Source: Hyphomicrobiales bacterium (GTDB lineage: Bacteria > Pseudomonadota > Alphaproteobacteria > Rhizobiales > Methyloligellaceae). Taken from it: a stretch of 64,000 nucleotides of DNA. This document shows positions 48,787-57,349 of the stretch, piece by piece; the first letter of the stretch is position 1, and each line of letters starts with the position of its first letter. The notes beneath the pieces were generated by a model. It saw only the letters and a list, made by a program, of their open reading frames with translations, searched no databases and was not told where the DNA came from. Position numbers and translations under genes: made by a program. Location of the stretch: the NCBI GenBank assembly GCA_021775595.1, contig JAJFHN010000075.1:1-64000 (forward strand), in the 5' to 3' direction.

Positions 48787-49200
48787 CTATGATCCGCCGA
48801 GCGCGCTTTCGTTTTTGGCGTAGGCTTCCAGCTGAGCGCGAGATACGGGCTGGATCTCAACCGATTCCCCGCAACCGCAAGCGCTGGTCTGGTTGGGATT
48901 GTTGAAGACGAATCCCGACGAGAGCTTATCTATCTCGTAATCCATCTCGGTACCGAGCAGAAAGAGCACGGCCTTTGGTTCGATGAACAGCCTGACGCCA
49001 TGCTCCTCGACAATCTCATCAAGCGGCTCCGCGTTCTCGGCGTAATCGATTGTGTATTCCATACCCGCACAGCCGCCGTTCTTGACGCCGATGCGCAGGC
49101 CGACCGCCTGCTTCTGCGAGGTCGCCATAATATCCTTGATGCGGTCGGCCGCCTTGCTCGTCAGCCGCATCACCTGGAGTTTTGCTCTCTGCATCGTCAT
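48787..49200 (-). CDS. sufA: A-type Fe-S carrier SufA
   Basis: SufA accepts clusters from SufBCD and passes them on. The 137-residue product has the three carrier cysteines: Cys44 in KNGGCAGMEY and Cys108/Cys110 in SACGCGESV. The N-terminal ten residues before MRLTSKAAD may be a leader; a second ATG there is an alternative start. The C-terminus extends about 25 residues beyond the last Cys. It is the last gene of the suf operon, 38 bases after sufT. ErpA at 21822 is the other A-type carrier here. Confidence 0.93.
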   Translation of the reverse strand: MTMQRAKLQVMRLTSKAADRIKDIMATSQKQAVGLRIGVKNGGCAGMEYTIDYAENAEPLDEIVEEHGVRLFIEPKAVLFLLGTEMDYEIDKLSSGFVFNNPNQTSACGCGESVEIQPVSRAQLEAYAKNESALGGS

Positions 49201-49238: not shown

Positions 49239-49682
49239 TTAAAACATGTTGAGCGCGACACGCGCTTCTTCCGACATGCGACTGATTTCCCATGGCGGGT
49301 CGAACACGAGCTTGACCGTTACGTTATTCACGCCGGCAACGCTGGCAACGGCGTTCTCCACCCAAACGGGCATTTCGCCGGCCACCGGACAGCCGGGAGC
49401 CGTCAAAGTCATATCGACCTCGACATTGCGGTCATCATCCACATCGATCCTGTAAATCAGGCCGAGCTCGTAGACATCCACCGGAATTTCCGGGTCATAA
49501 ACCGTCTTGATGGCCGCAACCATATCGTGGGTCAGCCGCTCGATTTCCTGTTCGCTCAGCCCCGATTCCGCTTTCTTCGGCGCGCCCTTGACGGCCTCGA
49601 CCGTCTGCGCGCATGCCTCCTCGAGCTCGGTATCGCTCATCAGAAAATCCCTTGGTTGGCGGTCTTCTGGTTTTTCCATCAT
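49239..49682 (-). CDS. sufT: SUF system assembly protein SufT (DUF59/MIP18 family)
   Basis: SufT-type proteins help mature or deliver Fe-S clusters. The 147-residue protein has the DUF59 core with DPEIPVDVYELGLIYRIDVDDDRNVEVDMTLTAPGCPVAGEMP, including the conserved Cys in PGCP. An about 45-residue N-terminal acidic extension precedes it. The ATG overlaps the sufS stop in ATGA, so translation is probably coupled. It lies between sufS and sufA, the usual alphaproteobacterial order. Confidence 0.92.
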   Translation of the reverse strand: MMEKPEDRQPRDFLMSDTELEEACAQTVEAVKGAPKKAESGLSEQEIERLTHDMVAAIKTVYDPEIPVDVYELGLIYRIDVDDDRNVEVDMTLTAPGCPVAGEMPVWVENAVASVAGVNNVTVKLVFDPPWEISRMSEEARVALNMF

Positions 49683-50950
49683 GCGAAAAATTCCCGGGCT
49701 TTGATCAACGCTGCGGCCAAAGCGTCGACCTCTTCAATGGTGTTGTACATGGCAAACGACGCCCGGCAGGTTGCCGTAACGCCAAAGCGTTCGAGCAGCG
49801 GCTGGGCGCAATGGTGACCGGCCCGCACCGCAATGCCCGAGCGGTCAATAATCGTTGCGATATCATGGGGATGCATGCCTTCAATATCAAACGATACGAT
49901 TGCACCCTTGTTGGGTGCTTCGCCAATGATGCGCAAACCCTCGATTTCGCCAAGCCGGGCATGGGCGTGGGTCAACAGCTGGTCCTCATGGGCGGTGATC
50001 GCATCGCGTCCGATCGTTTCGACATAATCCAGCGCCGCGCCAAATCCAATCGCTTGCACGATCGACGGCGTACCCGCTTCGAAGCGATAGGGCGGCTTGC
50101 CATAGCTGATCTCTTCGCATCTCACCGCCTCAATCATTTCACCGCCGCCTTGATAAGGCGGCATCGCGGCCAAATGCTCAGCCTTGGCATACAGCGCGCC
50201 TATGCCCGAGGGGCCATAGAGCTTATGGCCGGTGATTACATAGAAATCGCAATCGAGCGCCTGGACGTCGACATTCATATGAACGCCCGCCTGGGCGCCG
50301 TCGACGAGTACGGGAATGCCACGCTCATGAGCCAACGCGCTGACCTCAGCGATCGGCACGATGGTGCCAAGCACGTTGGACATGTGGCTGATGGCGACCA
50401 TTTTGGTGCGGGGTCCGAGCAACTTCTCGAACGCGTCCATTTGGAATTCGCCGTCTTGCGAGACGGGCGCCCATTTGAGCACCGCGCCGTTCCGCTCGCG
50501 GTGAAAATGCCACGGCACAATGTTGGAGTGGTGTTCCATGATGCTGACGACGATTTCATCGCCAGGCTCAATACGCTCGCCGCCGAAGGACTGCGCCACC
50601 AGATTGATCGCCTCGGTTGCGTTGCGAGTGAAGATGATCTCATTTTCCGAGGCGGCGTTGAGAAAATCGCGCACCTTGATCCGCGCGCCCTCGTAATTGG
50701 CGGTCGCAGCGTTGCTCAAATAGTGTAAGCCTCTGTGAACGTTGGCATATTCGCTCGCATAGGCGGTCTCGATGGCATCCAACACGGCTTGAGGCTTTTG
50801 CGCTGAAGCGCCGTTGTCCAGATAGACGAGCGGCTTGTCGTAGACGGTGCGCGACAGAATCGGGAAATCGGCCCGCACACGGGCGACGTCGTAGCCGCCT
50901 TGTGTCTGTAGCGCGCTGTCCTTCACCTTGAGCTCCATCGGTGCCGTCAT
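49679..50950 (-). CDS. sufS: Cysteine desulfurase SufS (group II)
   Basis: SufS takes sulfur from cysteine as a persulfide for SufBCD. I use the ATG at 50950 (MTAPMELKVKDSALQ), one base after the sufD stop; a TTG at 50959 is the earlier frame start. The 423-residue PLP enzyme has the lysine region VITGHKLYGPSGIGALY and the catalytic Cys loop RAGHHCAQPLLERFG near residue 382, in the HCAQP form of group II enzymes. No sufE or sufU is in the operon, so the sulfur acceptor must be encoded elsewhere. Confidence 0.95.
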   Translation of the reverse strand: MTAPMELKVKDSALQTQGGYDVARVRADFPILSRTVYDKPLVYLDNGASAQKPQAVLDAIETAYASEYANVHRGLHYLSNAATANYEGARIKVRDFLNAASENEIIFTRNATEAINLVAQSFGGERIEPGDEIVVSIMEHHSNIVPWHFHRERNGAVLKWAPVSQDGEFQMDAFEKLLGPRTKMVAISHMSNVLGTIVPIAEVSALAHERGIPVLVDGAQAGVHMNVDVQALDCDFYVITGHKLYGPSGIGALYAKAEHLAAMPPYQGGGEMIEAVRCEEISYGKPPYRFEAGTPSIVQAIGFGAALDYVETIGRDAITAHEDQLLTHAHARLGEIEGLRIIGEAPNKGAIVSFDIEGMHPHDIATIIDRSGIAVRAGHHCAQPLLERFGVTATCRASFAMYNTIEEVDALAAALIKAREFFA

Positions 50951-50951
50951 A

Positions 50952-52295
50952 TCACCCAATCCGGTGGGCCAACCAGCCGCGGACTGCTTCGCCTAAAGCC
51001 TCGCGGATGGTCTCGTTTTCGATCAGTTCAAGCGCTTCTCCGGCGAAGGCTTGAATCAAAAGCGACCGCGCTTCGAGCTCGCCGATGCCGCGCGCGCGCA
51101 AATAGAACAGCAGGTCTTCGTCGATCTGACCGGACGTTGAGCCATGCCCGCACAGCACATCGTCGGCAAAAATTTCCAGCTCGGGTTTTGAATCGAATTC
51201 GGCGCGCTCGGAAAGCAGCAATCCCTGCACCATCTCATTGCTGTCGGTCTTCTGGGCCTGTTGGCGCACCATGATCTTGCCCTGAAAAACGCCGCGCGCC
51301 GCATCGTCAAGCACGCCCTTAAAGACCATTCGGTTCACGCAATTGGCTGCGGCATGATCGACAAACAGCGTGGTGTCGATGTGTTGCTCGGAGGCACCCA
51401 TAAAGACGCCATTGACGCCCCCGCGCGCATGCTCACCGTTGAAGCTCAAATGGATCTCGTTGCGCGTTAAGCCGGTGCCGCCGACAAATTGAAATGCGTC
51501 ATAATTGGTAGAGGCCGCCAAAGCGACCCGCCAAGTCGACAAGTGGGTCGCTGAATCCGATTCCTGCTGGATCTTCAGGTGATGCATCGCCGCGCCCTCA
51601 GCCAACGACACGTCACTCGCCACATTGTGCTGCACCGCCGCGCTCGAGGGTCCCACATGGGACTCCAAAACGCTCGCCCGCGCGCGCGCTTCGAGGGCAA
51701 TCACGTGTCTGGTGGCGATGCCGACAGGCGTAGTTGCGGTATGCAAGTGCACGATGTGGATGGGTTTTTCTATGCTGACGTCCGCCGCAACGCGCAAGGC
51801 AACGCCATCGGACATCATTGCGGTGTTGAGACACAACACGGCATTTTGCGGCGCCATCTCGCCATCGGCCAAGCGCTCTTCCAGCCAGGTTGGCGGCGCG
51901 GCCAGCGCCGATGCCATGCTCGACAATTCACCCTGCTCACCCAAAAAATTCATTTCCGAGAGACCGATCGCCACTTGCCCATCGACCAGCACGATCAAGT
52001 GGCAATCCAAGGCGGCAAGCTCGCTTCCGAGCGCTTGCAGGACGTCATCGCGCGTGAGCTTGGGCCCCTCACCCGCCGGCGGCGCGAAGGCATCATCCAG
52101 ACGCGCATAAAGGTCCGTGTATTTCCATTCTTCAACACGCCGGTTGGGCAGCCCGGTGCGCGCAAAACCGCGCATTGCATCGTTGCGCAACTCGTGCACG
52201 CTGTCTGCGCCCGGCAACTCGGCCTTGACGCGGTCGAAGGTCTCGGCAAAGGCCAATTCAGCCTTGCTGGTCAATGTGTTCACCGCGGCATCCAT
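50952..52295 (-). CDS. sufD: Fe-S cluster scaffold subunit SufD
   Basis: SufD pairs with SufB and SufC in the scaffold complex. The ATG at 52295 has AAGGAGCG upstream and gives 447 residues. Visible parts are the beta-helix core and the C-terminal SufB/D motif with GHGSTSGQIDEDLLFYLRARGIGELEARSLLIQAF. The N-terminal helical domain carries RRVEEWKYTDL. It lies between sufC (12 bases upstream) and sufS. Length is normal for alphaproteobacterial SufD. Confidence 0.94.
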   Translation of the reverse strand: MDAAVNTLTSKAELAFAETFDRVKAELPGADSVHELRNDAMRGFARTGLPNRRVEEWKYTDLYARLDDAFAPPAGEGPKLTRDDVLQALGSELAALDCHLIVLVDGQVAIGLSEMNFLGEQGELSSMASALAAPPTWLEERLADGEMAPQNAVLCLNTAMMSDGVALRVAADVSIEKPIHIVHLHTATTPVGIATRHVIALEARARASVLESHVGPSSAAVQHNVASDVSLAEGAAMHHLKIQQESDSATHLSTWRVALAASTNYDAFQFVGGTGLTRNEIHLSFNGEHARGGVNGVFMGASEQHIDTTLFVDHAAANCVNRMVFKGVLDDAARGVFQGKIMVRQQAQKTDSNEMVQGLLLSERAEFDSKPELEIFADDVLCGHGSTSGQIDEDLLFYLRARGIGELEARSLLIQAFAGEALELIENETIREALGEAVRGWLAHRIG

Positions 52296-52307
52296 CAAAA
52301 TCGCTCC

Positions 52308-53057
52308 TTAAGCCGCTGCTTCTTCGTATTCGGCATAACCCGATTTCTCGAGTTCGAGCGCCAACTCCTTATCGCCCGAACGCACAATTTTACCGGCTGA
52401 AAGCACATGGACGCGATCGGGGACGATATAGGTCAGCAGACGCTGGTAATGGGTGATGACAAGCATCGCGCGCTCTGGCGAGCGCAGCGCGTTGACGCCT
52501 TCGGAGACGATCCGCACGGCGTCGATATCGAGGCCTGAATCGGTCTCATCCAGCACGCAGAGCGAGGGCTCGAGCAGCGCCATCTGAAGCACTTCTTGCC
52601 GCTTTTTTTCGCCACCGGAAAACCCGACATTCAGCGGACGTTTCAACATGTCGGACTCGATCTTGAGCGCTTCGGCTTTCTCGCGCACAACGCGCATGAA
52701 GTCGGGCGTGGTGAGCTCATCTTCGCCGCGCGCCTTGCGCACGGCGTTCAGCGCCGTTCGCAGAAAAGTCATCGTGGCAACGCCGGGTATCTCCACCGGA
52801 TACTGAAAGGCGAGAAAAACGCCCGCCGCAGCGCGCTCATCGGGACTGAGCTCCAGGAGGTCCTCGCCGTTCCAGGTGATCGATCCCTTGGTGACCACAT
52901 AGTCGTCCTTACCCGCCAACACGTAAGCGAGCGTCGATTTCCCCGATCCATTGGGACCCATGATGGCGTGTACTTCGCCCTTGGGAACTTCGATATCGAG
53001 ACCGTCGAGGATCTCCTTGCCATCGACTTCGACGTGCAGATTTTCAATTTTCAACAT
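52308..53057 (-). CDS. sufC: Fe-S assembly ATPase SufC
   Basis: SufC is the ABC-type ATPase that drives cluster assembly on SufB-SufD. The 249-residue product has Walker A MGPNGSGKSTLAYVLAG near residues 33-49, the signature FSGGEKKRQEVLQMALLEP near 146-164, and Walker B CVLDETDSGLDIDAV near 167-181, where SufC proteins have DETDSGLD in place of DEPTSGLD. No membrane partner exists; it is soluble. It is 57 bases downstream of sufB and 12 bases ahead of sufD. Confidence 0.97.
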   Translation of the reverse strand: MLKIENLHVEVDGKEILDGLDIEVPKGEVHAIMGPNGSGKSTLAYVLAGKDDYVVTKGSITWNGEDLLELSPDERAAAGVFLAFQYPVEIPGVATMTFLRTALNAVRKARGEDELTTPDFMRVVREKAEALKIESDMLKRPLNVGFSGGEKKRQEVLQMALLEPSLCVLDETDSGLDIDAVRIVSEGVNALRSPERAMLVITHYQRLLTYIVPDRVHVLSAGKIVRSGDKELALELEKSGYAEYEEAAA

Positions 53058-53114: not shown

Positions 53115-54632
53115 CTATCCCACGCTCCCTTCGAGCGAAATGCCGATCAATTTCTGCGTTTCAGCCATGAACTCCATCGGCAAATGCTGAAGAACGTCGC
53201 GCACGAAGCCGTTGACGATCAGTGCCACAGCCTCCTCATCGTTCATGCCGCGAGCCTGGCAATAGAACATCTGATCGTCCGAAATCTTGGACGTCGTCGC
53301 CTCGTGTTCAAAGGTGGCCGACGCGTTCTTCGCCTCGATATAGGGCACGGTATGAGCGCCGCACTCATTCCCGATCAGAAGTGAATCGCACTGGGTGAAG
53401 TTGCGCGCGCCGGTTGCTTTGCGGTGCGCCGAGACCAGTCCGCGATAGGTGTTGGACGAATGACCCGCCGAAATGCCCTTCGAGATGATCCGGCTTGATG
53501 TGTTGCGCCCCAAGTGAACCATTTTGGTCCCTGAATCGACCTGCTGGTATCCGTTCGAAACGGCGATCGAATAGAACTCGCCGCGCGAATTGTCACCGCG
53601 CAGGATGCAGCTTGGATATTTCCAGGTGATTGCTGAGCCCGTTTCCACCTGGGTCCAGGAAATCTTGGAGTTCTTGCCGCGGCAATCACCACGCTTGGTG
53701 ACGAAATTGTAGATGCCGCCCTTGCCGTTCTTGTCGCCGGGATACCAATTTTGCACGGTCGAATATTTGATTTCGGCATCGTCCAGCGCGACGAGTTCGA
53801 CGACGGCCGCATGCAGCTGATTTTCATCGCGCATGGGAGCGGTGCAACCCTCCAGGTAGCTGACGTAGGAGCCCTTGTCGGCGATGATCAGCGTGCGCTC
53901 GAATTGGCCTGTCTGCTGCTCGTTGATGCGGAAATAGGTCGAGAGCTCCATCGGGCAGCGGGTGTTCTCGGGCACATAGACGAAACTGCCGTCGGAAAAC
54001 ACGGCCGCGTTGAGCGTGGCGTAGAAATTATCCGTTGTGGGGACCACCGTTCCCAGATACTTGCGCACCAATTCGGGGTACTTTTGCAGAGCCTCTGAGA
54101 TTGAACAAAAGATGACGCCGGCTTTCGCCAACTCTTCCTTGAAGGTGGTCACGACCGAAACCGAATCGAACACCGCATCGACTGCGACTTTGCCGGTGCC
54201 ATAGTCTCCCACCGTCTCGTCTAGCTCGCTCGGCTCACCCTGTTTGCGCACGCCAGCGAGCAGCTCTTGCTCCTTCAGCGGGATACCGAGCTTTGCATAA
54301 GTCTCGAGCAGCTCGGGATCGACCTCGTCCAAACTCTTGGGCCCTTCGGTGCTCTTGGGCGCGGCGTAGTAATAGAGGTCTTGGAAATCGATTTTGGGAT
54401 AATGGACGCGCGCCCAGGTGGGCTCGTCCATGGTAAGCCAGCGGCGATAGGCGCCGAGCCGCCATTCGAGCATCCATTCGGGCTCGGACTTCTTCTCAGA
54501 GATGAAGCGGACGATGTCCTCGTTGAGGCCCTTGGGCGCCTTAACGGTCTCGATATCGGTGGAAAATCCGTATTTGTACTTGTCGACGTCAAGGTCTTTG
54601 ACCTGTTCGACCGTTTCCTGAACCGCTGGCAT
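53115..54632 (-). CDS. sufB: Fe-S cluster scaffold subunit SufB
   Basis: SufB is the main scaffold on which SufBCD builds the cluster. I use the ATG at 54632 ([22 protein letters not shown]), giving 505 residues; a 25-codon Arg-rich upstream extension is unlikely. Motifs include [38 protein letters not shown], and the C-terminal [15 protein letters not shown] and [21 protein letters not shown], which hold the conserved Cys. It is 49 bases after the IscS-like gene and is followed by sufC. Confidence 0.97.
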
Positions 54633-54681
54633 TACTCTCTCCAACCTTTCGCGTTGTCTAAGTCCGTTCGGCCGGCATCGC

Positions 54682-55854
54682 TCACGCCGCTTGCCGCCTC
54701 GCGACAAAGCGCGCGTGGATATCGCGCCATGCCGTCAAAAAAAGTTCGATGTCCCGATCACTGGTGTCGTGGCCCAAGCTCACCCTGACGGCCCCGTTCG
54801 CCAACGCCGCCTCCACGCCCATCGCTTCGAGCACATGGGAGCGTTCGACTTTGCCCGAAGAGCAGGCCGCGCCAGCGCTGACCGCCACGCCCGCCAGATC
54901 GAATGCGATGACGAGATTTTCGGCCGACATGCCATCGACGGCAAAGCACATAGTGTTCGCCAAACGCTCGACGGTCTGCGCAATCACGACTGCGTCAGGC
55001 GCAATCGCCATGACCTCGGTTTCCAGCCGATCGCGCATGTCCTGCAGATTTGACGTGCGCGCCAACGCCTTGACCGCTGCATCCGCCGCGATGCCAAAGC
55101 CGATGATGCCAGAAACATTTTCAGTTCCAGCCCGCCATCTGTGTTCTTGCCCGCCGCCGCTGATCAGACGGTCGTTCAGCTGGGCCAGCGAGCGACCCAG
55201 CACCAACGCGCCGACGCCTTGCGGGCCGCCGATTTTGTGTGCCGACAAGCTCATCATATCAGCGCCCAAAGCATCCAAATCGAGCGGGATTTTACCCGCC
55301 GCCTGCACGCCGTCGCAATGAAGCTTGCCGCCCAATTCATGGACGATCGATGCAATTTCCGCGACCGGTTGCAGCGCGCCCGTTTCGTTGTTCGCCGCCA
55401 TGACCGCGACCAAGAATGGCGTATCTGGAGACGCCGTCACGAACGCCGTGAGATCGGCGCGCAATTGCGTGCAATCGATCACGCCGTCACTCGATACGCT
55501 AAGGATCGATACCCGCTCAGCCGGAAACCGGCCGCCGCCAAGCACTGATGGATGCTCGATGGCCGAAACGAAGCAGTGTGCCGCGTCATTCGCGATGCCG
55601 GCATGGGCTGGCGCCAGCGCCGTCACATTGGCTTCGGTTCCACCACTGGTGAAAATCACCTGGCCTGGATCAACGCCGGCGAGGTCGGCCACCTGTTGGC
55701 GGGCGCGGTCCAGCAACGCCCGCACGCCTCGTCCCTCGGCATGAACCGATGAGGGATTGCCGCCCAACGCCAAAGCGCGTGCAACACCTTCGCGCACCTC
55801 CGGCAAGATCGGCGCGGACGCGTTGTGATCGAGATATGCGCGTTCTTGGCTCAT
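54682..55854 (-). CDS. iscS: Cysteine desulfurase, group I (IscS/NifS-like)
   Basis: The ATG at 55854 gives 390 residues. The PLP lysine is in [17 protein letters not shown] and the catalytic Cys in the long group I loop [21 protein letters not shown]. That loop distinguishes it from SufS, which is also in this operon. It starts five bases after the iscR stop. Alphaproteobacterial suf operons often keep this gene as a second desulfurase; whether it serves Fe-S assembly or tRNA thiolation cannot be told from sequence. Confidence 0.92.
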
Positions 55855-55859
55855 CAACC

Positions 55860-56354
55860 TTACTTCGCCGCGGCCTGACGGCTGGGCGCATCCTGGACCT
55901 CGGGTTCAGAACGCTCCGCCGCGCCGCGCATCATTTCCTTGGCGATTTGGTTGTCGACCACATCGCCCAGTGTGACGCCGTCCAGAAAATTCACGATTTG
56001 GCGGCCGAGCGCGTCCCACAGATCGTGCGTCAGACAGCGATCGTCGCCCATACAGCCCACGTCGTGATCGCCCCCACCGCAGCGGGTCATTTTCACTGGC
56101 TCGTCCACGGCCCGCATGATCTCGGCAATGGTGATCTGACCAACTTCACGCTGCAGCGCATATCCGCCGCCTGGTCCGCGAAAGCTCGTAACCAAGTCGG
56201 CCCGGCGCAGCTTTAGGAAAAGCTGCTCCAGATAAGGCAGCGAAATCTGTTGGCGCTCGGCGATCGACGACAGATTGACGATGCTGTCTTCGCCCTGTTT
56301 GGCCAGATCCGCCAGCGCCATTACGGCGTATCTTCCTTTGGTGGAGAGTTGCAT
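55860..56354 (-). CDS. iscR: Fe-S-sensing Rrf2 regulator IscR
   Basis: IscR is a winged-helix repressor/activator that senses Fe-S cluster status and controls its own operon. The 164-residue protein has the recognition N-terminus MQLSTKGRYAVMALADLA and wing GPGGGYALQRE. Its cluster ligands match the IscR set: Cys92, Cys101, Cys107 and His110 (RC...C...CLTHDLW). Eight residues lie between the first two Cys, three more than in Escherichia coli. The CLTH with LW favours IscR over RirA. It heads the operon iscR-iscS-sufBCDS-sufT-sufA; its promoter has an IscR-like operator. Confidence 0.93.
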   Translation of the reverse strand: MQLSTKGRYAVMALADLAKQGEDSIVNLSSIAERQQISLPYLEQLFLKLRRADLVTSFRGPGGGYALQREVGQITIAEIMRAVDEPVKMTRCGGGDHDVGCMGDDRCLTHDLWDALGRQIVNFLDGVTLGDVVDNQIAKEMMRGAAERSEPEVQDAPSRQAAAK

Positions 56355-56487
56355 TTTCTACCACTCGCAACGGTTGAGAAACGGCATGCCGACCGAAATA
56401 ACCGGCCGAGGTTTTCGAACACTTGCCCAACACCCCGTCGATTGTGCTATGAAGCGCCGCGCCCGTTTAGACCGGGCATTCAGCTTT

Positions 56488-56502
56488 TTTGAATAATTCT
56501 AA
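56488..56502 (-). promoter_or_regulatory. Irr-type ICE-box-like palindrome at the predicted iscR start site
   Basis: Read on the minus strand, TTAGAATTATTCAAA is a nearly perfect inverted repeat, one mismatch from the Irr ICE half sites TTAGAA...TTCTAA. It begins about four bases downstream of the predicted transcript start. Irr in Hyphomicrobiales represses iron-using genes under iron limitation, so a second iron input is likely. Confidence 0.5.
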
Positions 56503-56512
56503 GTCTAGGCTG

Positions 56513-56541
56513 GTTATAGGAATCCCGACTCAGCAAGTCAA
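56513..56541 (-). promoter_or_regulatory. Promoter of the iscR-suf operon
   Basis: On the minus strand TTGACT (56541-56536) and TATAAC (56518-56513) are separated by 17 bases, an excellent sigma-70-type promoter. The predicted start is near 56506, about 150 bases ahead of the iscR ATG. The IscR-like operator overlaps the -35 box and spacer. Confidence 0.78.
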
Positions 56542-56545
56542 GTAT
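56521..56545 (-). promoter_or_regulatory. IscR type-1-like operator
   Basis: Read on the minus strand, the 25 bases have arms ATACTTGACT and AGTCGGGATT around a five-base centre. The arms fit the IscR type 1 consensus (ATASYYGACT...AGTCRRSTAT) at all but two arm positions. The site covers the -35 box and most of the spacer, so IscR would block RNA polymerase, giving autoregulation. Confidence 0.65.
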
Positions 56546-56689: not shown

Positions 56690-57349
56690 ATGCCTGAAGT
56701 CATTATCAACGGTCCCGCCGGACGCATCGAGGCCCGCTACCATCACGAGCCCTCTCAGACCGCGCCGGTTGCAATCATTCTCCATCCTCACCCGCAATTC
56801 GGCGGGACGATGAACAACCAGATCGTCTATCACCTCTATTACACCTTCGTGCGGCGCAAATTCTCGGTGTTGCGCTTCAATTTCCGCGGTGTTGGACGAA
56901 GCCAGGGCCTGTTCGACAATGGACCGGGCGAGCTTGCAGATGCCGCAACCGCGCTCGACTGGATGCAGAGTTTCAATCCCGATGCGCGCGCCTGCTGGAT
57001 CGCCGGCGTCTCGTTCGGTTCTTGGATCTCGATGCAGCTTTTAATGCGCCGTCCCGAGATCGAAGGCTTCATTTCGATCGCGCCGCCCGCCAATCTCTAC
57101 GATTTCAGCTTTTTGGCGCCCTGCCCGTCCTCTGGCCTAATGGTCAATGGCGGCGGCGACCGTGTCGTCTCGACCGAGGCGGTGGCGGGTCTCGTCGACC
57201 GGCTCAAGACGCAGAAGGGCGTGGTGATCGACCACGAAGTCGTGCCCGAAGCCAACCATTTCTTCGAAGGCAAGGTCGATCAGCTGATGGGCGTGGTTGA
57301 TGGCTATTTAGACAAGCGTCTCAAGAAAAAGGCTGAATCGGCCGCCTGA
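56690..57349 (+). CDS. Alpha/beta-hydrolase of the dienelactone/YqiA-like conserved type
   Basis: The 219-residue protein has a hydrolase core with HPHPQFGGTMNNQIV near residues 32-46, FNFRGVGRSQG near 68-78, nucleophile elbow GVSFGSWISMQLL near 107-119 and a late acid and His in GDRVVST and EANHFFEGK. All three catalytic residues are in place. It is a widespread proteobacterial family of unknown substrate. It is divergent from iscR; its start codon is 335 bases away, so both promoters share that space. Homologues are often next to the suf operon in alphaproteobacteria. Confidence 0.85.
   Translation: MPEVIINGPAGRIEARYHHEPSQTAPVAIILHPHPQFGGTMNNQIVYHLYYTFVRRKFSVLRFNFRGVGRSQGLFDNGPGELADAATALDWMQSFNPDARACWIAGVSFGSWISMQLLMRRPEIEGFISIAPPANLYDFSFLAPCPSSGLMVNGGGDRVVSTEAVAGLVDRLKTQKGVVIDHEVVPEANHFFEGKVDQLMGVVDGYLDKRLKKKAESAA

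Follow-up and report, generated by a model that had tools for sequence, protein, structure and literature searches.

A predicted iscR-suf promoter with separate putative IscR and Irr operators in a Hyphomicrobiales bacterium

The window analysed here, a 64,000-nucleotide stretch of a Hyphomicrobiales genome, carries on its minus strand an iron-sulfur cluster assembly operon of the order iscR-iscS-sufBCDS-DUF59-sufA. A promoter and two operator-like sites lie together upstream of iscR, all within 56545-56487 of the minus strand. The features are as follows.

56521 to 56545, minus strand: IscR type-1-like operator ATACTTGACTTGCTGAGTCGGGATT, about -39 to -15, overlapping the -35; predicted from consensus fit, genome uniqueness and conservation
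56513 to 56541, minus strand: sigma-70-type promoter of the iscR-suf operon, read from the sequence; -35 and -10 retained by almost every family member, whether iscR is present or not
56487 to 56503, minus strand: predicted Irr box (ICE) CTTAGAATTATTCAAAA, about +4 to +20; 2 of 14 mismatches to TTTAGAANNNTTCTAAA, fixed offset in Hyphomicrobiales, follows the presence of irr
56421 to 56458, plus strand: element CTTGCC ... TGCTATGAA, conserved in Hyphomicrobiales leaders; putative promoter
55860 to 56354, minus strand: iscR, 164 aa (TIGR02010, 176 bits; PDB IscR matches, E about 1e-35)
54682 to 55857, minus strand: iscS-type cysteine desulfurase (below equivalog cut-offs)
53115 to 54707, minus strand: sufB (NF008773, 906 bits)
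52308 to 53057, minus strand: sufC (TIGR01978, 361 bits)
50952 to 52298, minus strand: sufD (TIGR01981, 266 bits)
49679 to 50959, minus strand: sufS (TIGR01979, 586 bits)
49239 to 49682, minus strand: SUF-associated DUF59 protein (TIGR02945, 155 bits)
48787 to 49200, minus strand: sufA (TIGR01997, 137 bits)

The promoter has the form TTGACT-N17-TATAAC and is located 150 nt upstream of the operon. On the minus strand TTGACT occupies 56541-56536 and, after a spacer of 17, TATAAC occupies 56518-56513, with the predicted start at the A at 56506. An automated promoter scan of the window missed it because the scan requires T as the final base of the -10. A preliminary description of this DNA had reported the promoter with an IscR-like site over its -35 and an Irr-type palindrome at the start; re-reading of the minus strand bears out this observation, and every coordinate given there is right.

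The upstream site ATACTTGACTTGCTGAGTCGGGATT is a 25-bp partial palindrome of the type 1 kind. It fits the E. coli type 1 consensus ATASYYGACTRWWWYAGTCRRSTAT, itself a 25-bp partial palindrome (PMC3899308), at 19 of 25 positions, and the arm cores GACT and AGTC are both exact. Across the 2.9-Mb genome the core TTGACT-N5-AGTCGGG is matched perfectly at this promoter, the next best sites having two mismatches and none having one. When the 300-bp upstream region was Markov-shuffled 20,000 times, no shuffle reached the core. The second site, cTTAGAATTATTCAAAa, read directly as TTAGAATTATTCAAA at 56502-56488 of the minus strand, is a palindrome of the TTTAGAA-N3-TTCTAAA type near the start. It agrees with TTTAGAANNNTTCTAAA at 12 of the 14 defined bases, many relatives reaching 13/14 or 14/14, and shuffling 300 bp gives a match this good in about 0.15% of cases. 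The sequence TTAGAANNNTTCNAA is found once in the genome, at this promoter. On sequence grounds the two sites are predicted operators at which IscR and Irr would bind and repress.

Both regulators are encoded in the genome; the preliminary description gave as background that IscR and Irr are used in alphaproteobacteria. The best match of the window's IscR among Rrf2 models is TIGR02010 (E 2.8e-52), but its 176 bits fall below the curated cut-off of 207.55; the name therefore draws jointly on the protein family, the operon and the residues. The protein's best PDB matches include IscR structures, and it has the Cys3His set, Cys92, Cys101, Cys107 and His110 being the likely [2Fe-2S] ligands. The genome holds three Fur-family genes, one of which is Irr by NCBIfam (IrrA model, 207.9 bits; cut-off 150). 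This irr gene is on another contig than the window, and the protein sequence contains an HFH heme-type motif. A further Rrf2 protein, at L086 (G000 C48:19137-19526), reaches 133 bits with the NsrR model and 125 bits with the RirA model, both below the cut-offs. RirA in place of Irr is possible from these scores but not needed.

Conservation of the two sites was followed in 89 iscR upstream regions, the window included, of which 88 are distinct (L002 and L089 come from the same genome). The ICE is present at two mismatches or fewer in 31 of the 89 (30 of the 88 distinct regions), compared with three for the reversed ICE and 0, 0 and 0 for three permuted palindromes in the same regions. Its position takes two forms. 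In Hyphomicrobiales the ICE lies 38-40 bp from the TTGAC of the -35 in 20 of 21 rows and 33 bp in the remaining one; in Rhodobacterales the offset is 21 bp in all ten rows, within the -10, and the ICE contains TAGAAT at -10 spacing. The window's ICE has an offset of 38 and so does not overlap the -10 in the Rhodobacterales manner, while both boxes are placed around the iscR promoter and its predicted start. The preliminary description had named a scan of relatives beforehand, with lack of conservation counting against it; both sites are conserved, and none of the contrary outcomes that could be tested here appeared.

The ICE also follows Irr, which is present in the window's own genome. In the 44 genomes that have an iscR locus, several of them incomplete MAGs, an ICE with up to two mismatches precedes iscR in 18 of the 24 with Irr over the cut-off versus 2 of the 20 that lack an Irr over the cut-off (Fisher p 1.6e-5, uncorrected for kinship). 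No ICE is found in the examined Caulobacterales iscR upstream regions, nor in two of Rhodobacteraceae, all from genomes without Irr over the cut-off. Irr is present and the ICE absent in six genomes, so the box is not forced by the presence of Irr. Within the genome the ICE is not outstanding: five sites are equally good, against six for the reversed control, and the window's box is no better than four others. The genome-wide count was rejected as proof, being equal to the reversed control, and the ICE is therefore convincing only through conservation. A shared Irr regulon did not emerge from the genome scan: the remaining ICE-like sites are situated near a phage-like region, near unclear genes and near a gene for an ABC-transporter substrate-binding protein. 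Upstream of this last gene, at L118:1501-1547 (G000 C101:37236-37282), are two such palindromes with a spacing of 30 bp, and a histidine kinase gene is divergent or nearby. The pair is a possible second Irr target; an iron transporter is suspected, its substrate being uncertain.

The family of the window's organism offers a natural series of iscR loss. In some genera iscS-suf stands behind the same divergent hydrolase gene without iscR. At 17 such loci the -35, a CCTATA-type -10 and the ICE (1-2 mismatches) are all retained before iscS-suf. The type 1 consensus score out of 25 is 19-21 in ten family loci with iscR versus 11-18 in the 17 without (Mann-Whitney p 2e-5, uncorrected for shared descent), the drift affecting the IscR flanks and the right arm. 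The 17 loci are not independent, and the loss may represent one or two events. Irr is over the cut-off in 29 of 30 family genomes. The ICE is retained while the IscR site decays; thus the two elements are under separate constraint, like operators for two proteins, and the series supports, at the level of sequence, two separable operators. An iscR-less locus from another family (L167) shows the same pattern. The iscR-less iscS-suf operons at L158-L164 and L167 keep promoter and ICE, and Fe-S assembly in this lineage may be under Irr alone. No account of such a series was found in the literature searched, most subscription journals lying outside it.

Between the ICE and iscR lies a block of about 35 bp that Hyphomicrobiales conserve whether or not they have iscR. 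Read on the plus strand it is CTTGCC ... TGTGCTATGAAG, an extended -10-like sequence with an unusual 19-bp spacer in which CCCC is often conserved. It is probably the divergent promoter of the alpha/beta-hydrolase gene (56690-57349), and it could be a regulator site instead. Transcription from this element would run through both the ICE and the IscR operator. The P5 promoter of R. sphaeroides is a precedent for a divergent or antisense promoter of this kind. An RNA element in the leader was rejected, there being no Rfam match and no convincing consensus fold.

The reading we favour, with a probability of about 0.7, is an autoregulated iscR-iscS-suf promoter with two separable repressor operators, one for IscR and one for Irr. 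The inferred elements of this reading are the binding of both proteins, the sign of their effects, the position of the start and a geometry of mutual exclusion or roadblock. While clusters are plentiful, Fe-S-loaded IscR on the -35 would shut out RNA polymerase; when clusters run short, IscR would be released and the operon would rise. Irr, active at low iron or heme, would occupy the ICE immediately past the start, block initiation or escape and damp the operon, keeping cluster assembly below its full rate when the iron supply is lacking. The combined outcome of this presumed dual repression would be an operon that is low with plentiful clusters and limited when iron is very scarce. A broader proposal, which we hold tentatively and at somewhat less than even odds, is that Hyphomicrobiales have a second dual-promoter form, in which the Irr box follows the start instead of sitting on the -10 and IscR and Irr can repress independently, and that whole genera then lost iscR, leaving Irr alone.

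The main competing reading makes IscR the sole regulator that matters, with the ICE bound weakly or under special conditions and Irr acting indirectly. It draws on the isc-suf promoter P2 of R. sphaeroides, where Irr failed to bind the promoter region in vitro, giving no shift, where its effects are small and where indirect action was concluded (PMC6956336). We consider it unlikely for the present promoter: the position of the ICE is fixed in dozens of genomes, the box is mostly missing where irr is missing, and it is retained in the 17 iscR-less promoters, a persistence not expected of a non-functional site. These observations argue for real Irr control of Fe-S assembly in this clade despite the negative in vitro result in the Rhodobacter counterpart, the sole one tested.

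The sign of the Irr effect is a further matter, as the R. sphaeroides results point both ways. An irr mutant has more suf transcript overall (PMC3413700), but P2 reporter activity is about 2-fold lower on loss of irr, a small effect opposite in sign to repression (PMC6956336). Irr might accordingly be an activator, or it might regulate the divergent alpha/beta-hydrolase transcript and affect iscR through transcription interference; the plus-strand element at 56421-56458 would send such a transcript across the ICE, and antisense promoters of R. sphaeroides (P5 for RSP_0444) overlap isc-suf starts. A position past the iscR start is nevertheless the classic one for a repressor, the Rhodobacterales ICE coincides with the iscR -10, and the putative plus-strand promoter has a long spacer, so that we regard these alternatives as quite improbable. 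Least credible by far is the view that a chance AT-rich stretch of the initially transcribed region happens to resemble an ICE. The genome-wide count at two mismatches, not above the reversed control, is what it has in its favour, and it is already largely refuted by conservation, namely by the recovery of the box over its four controls at two discrete offsets.

The repressor reading on both sites accords with the species studied so far, in which cluster-bearing IscR represses and Irr represses at low iron (PMC4618611, PMC3413700). The closest known system is R. sphaeroides P2, where the -35 is likewise covered by an IscR box and an Irr box is placed at the start of the iscR-suf operon (Remes 2015, PMC4618611; Nie 2019, PMC6956336); it too has a divergent neighbour with an antisense start. 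IscR binding and strong repression are proven there (PMC6956336, PMC4618611). It differs in that its Irr box extends from -13 to +1 and falls within the -10, whereas that of the window lies past the start, and in that its IscR has a single Cys in contrast to the Cys3His set of the window protein. The novelty that the preliminary description implied for the pairing finds no support: both boxes had been predicted upstream of Rhodobacter iscR by Rodionov et al. in 2006, as cited in PMC6956336, and both were tested in R. sphaeroides by Nie et al. in 2019 (PMC6956336). The window promoter is a member of a known design and a modest variant of ordinary biology, to which it adds a different ICE position and the natural iscR-loss series.

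Other systems share one half of the arrangement. The E. coli iscR promoter has the same 25-bp type 1 consensus over the promoter, and Fe-S-dependent autorepression is expected in both; unlike the window's organism, E. coli, among the control genomes, has no Irr over the cut-off and so no ICE input. At the Caulobacter isc-suf promoter IscR likewise lies over the -35 and represses at iron sufficiency (PMC11475020), but the examined Caulobacterales show neither an ICE upstream of iscR nor an Irr over the cut-off. The mbfA promoter of R. sphaeroides and the bfr promoter of Bradyrhizobium carry an ICE at or over the transcript start, as here, and their description contains no IscR operator (PMC3413700). 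The clades compared offer a clean natural series, in four states, for the question of how two iron sensors share a promoter. Caulobacterales and Pelagibacterales have IscR alone; Rhodobacterales have both, the Irr box coinciding with the -10; Hyphomicrobiales, among them the window, have both, the Irr box following the start; and where iscR has been lost, Irr alone is left.
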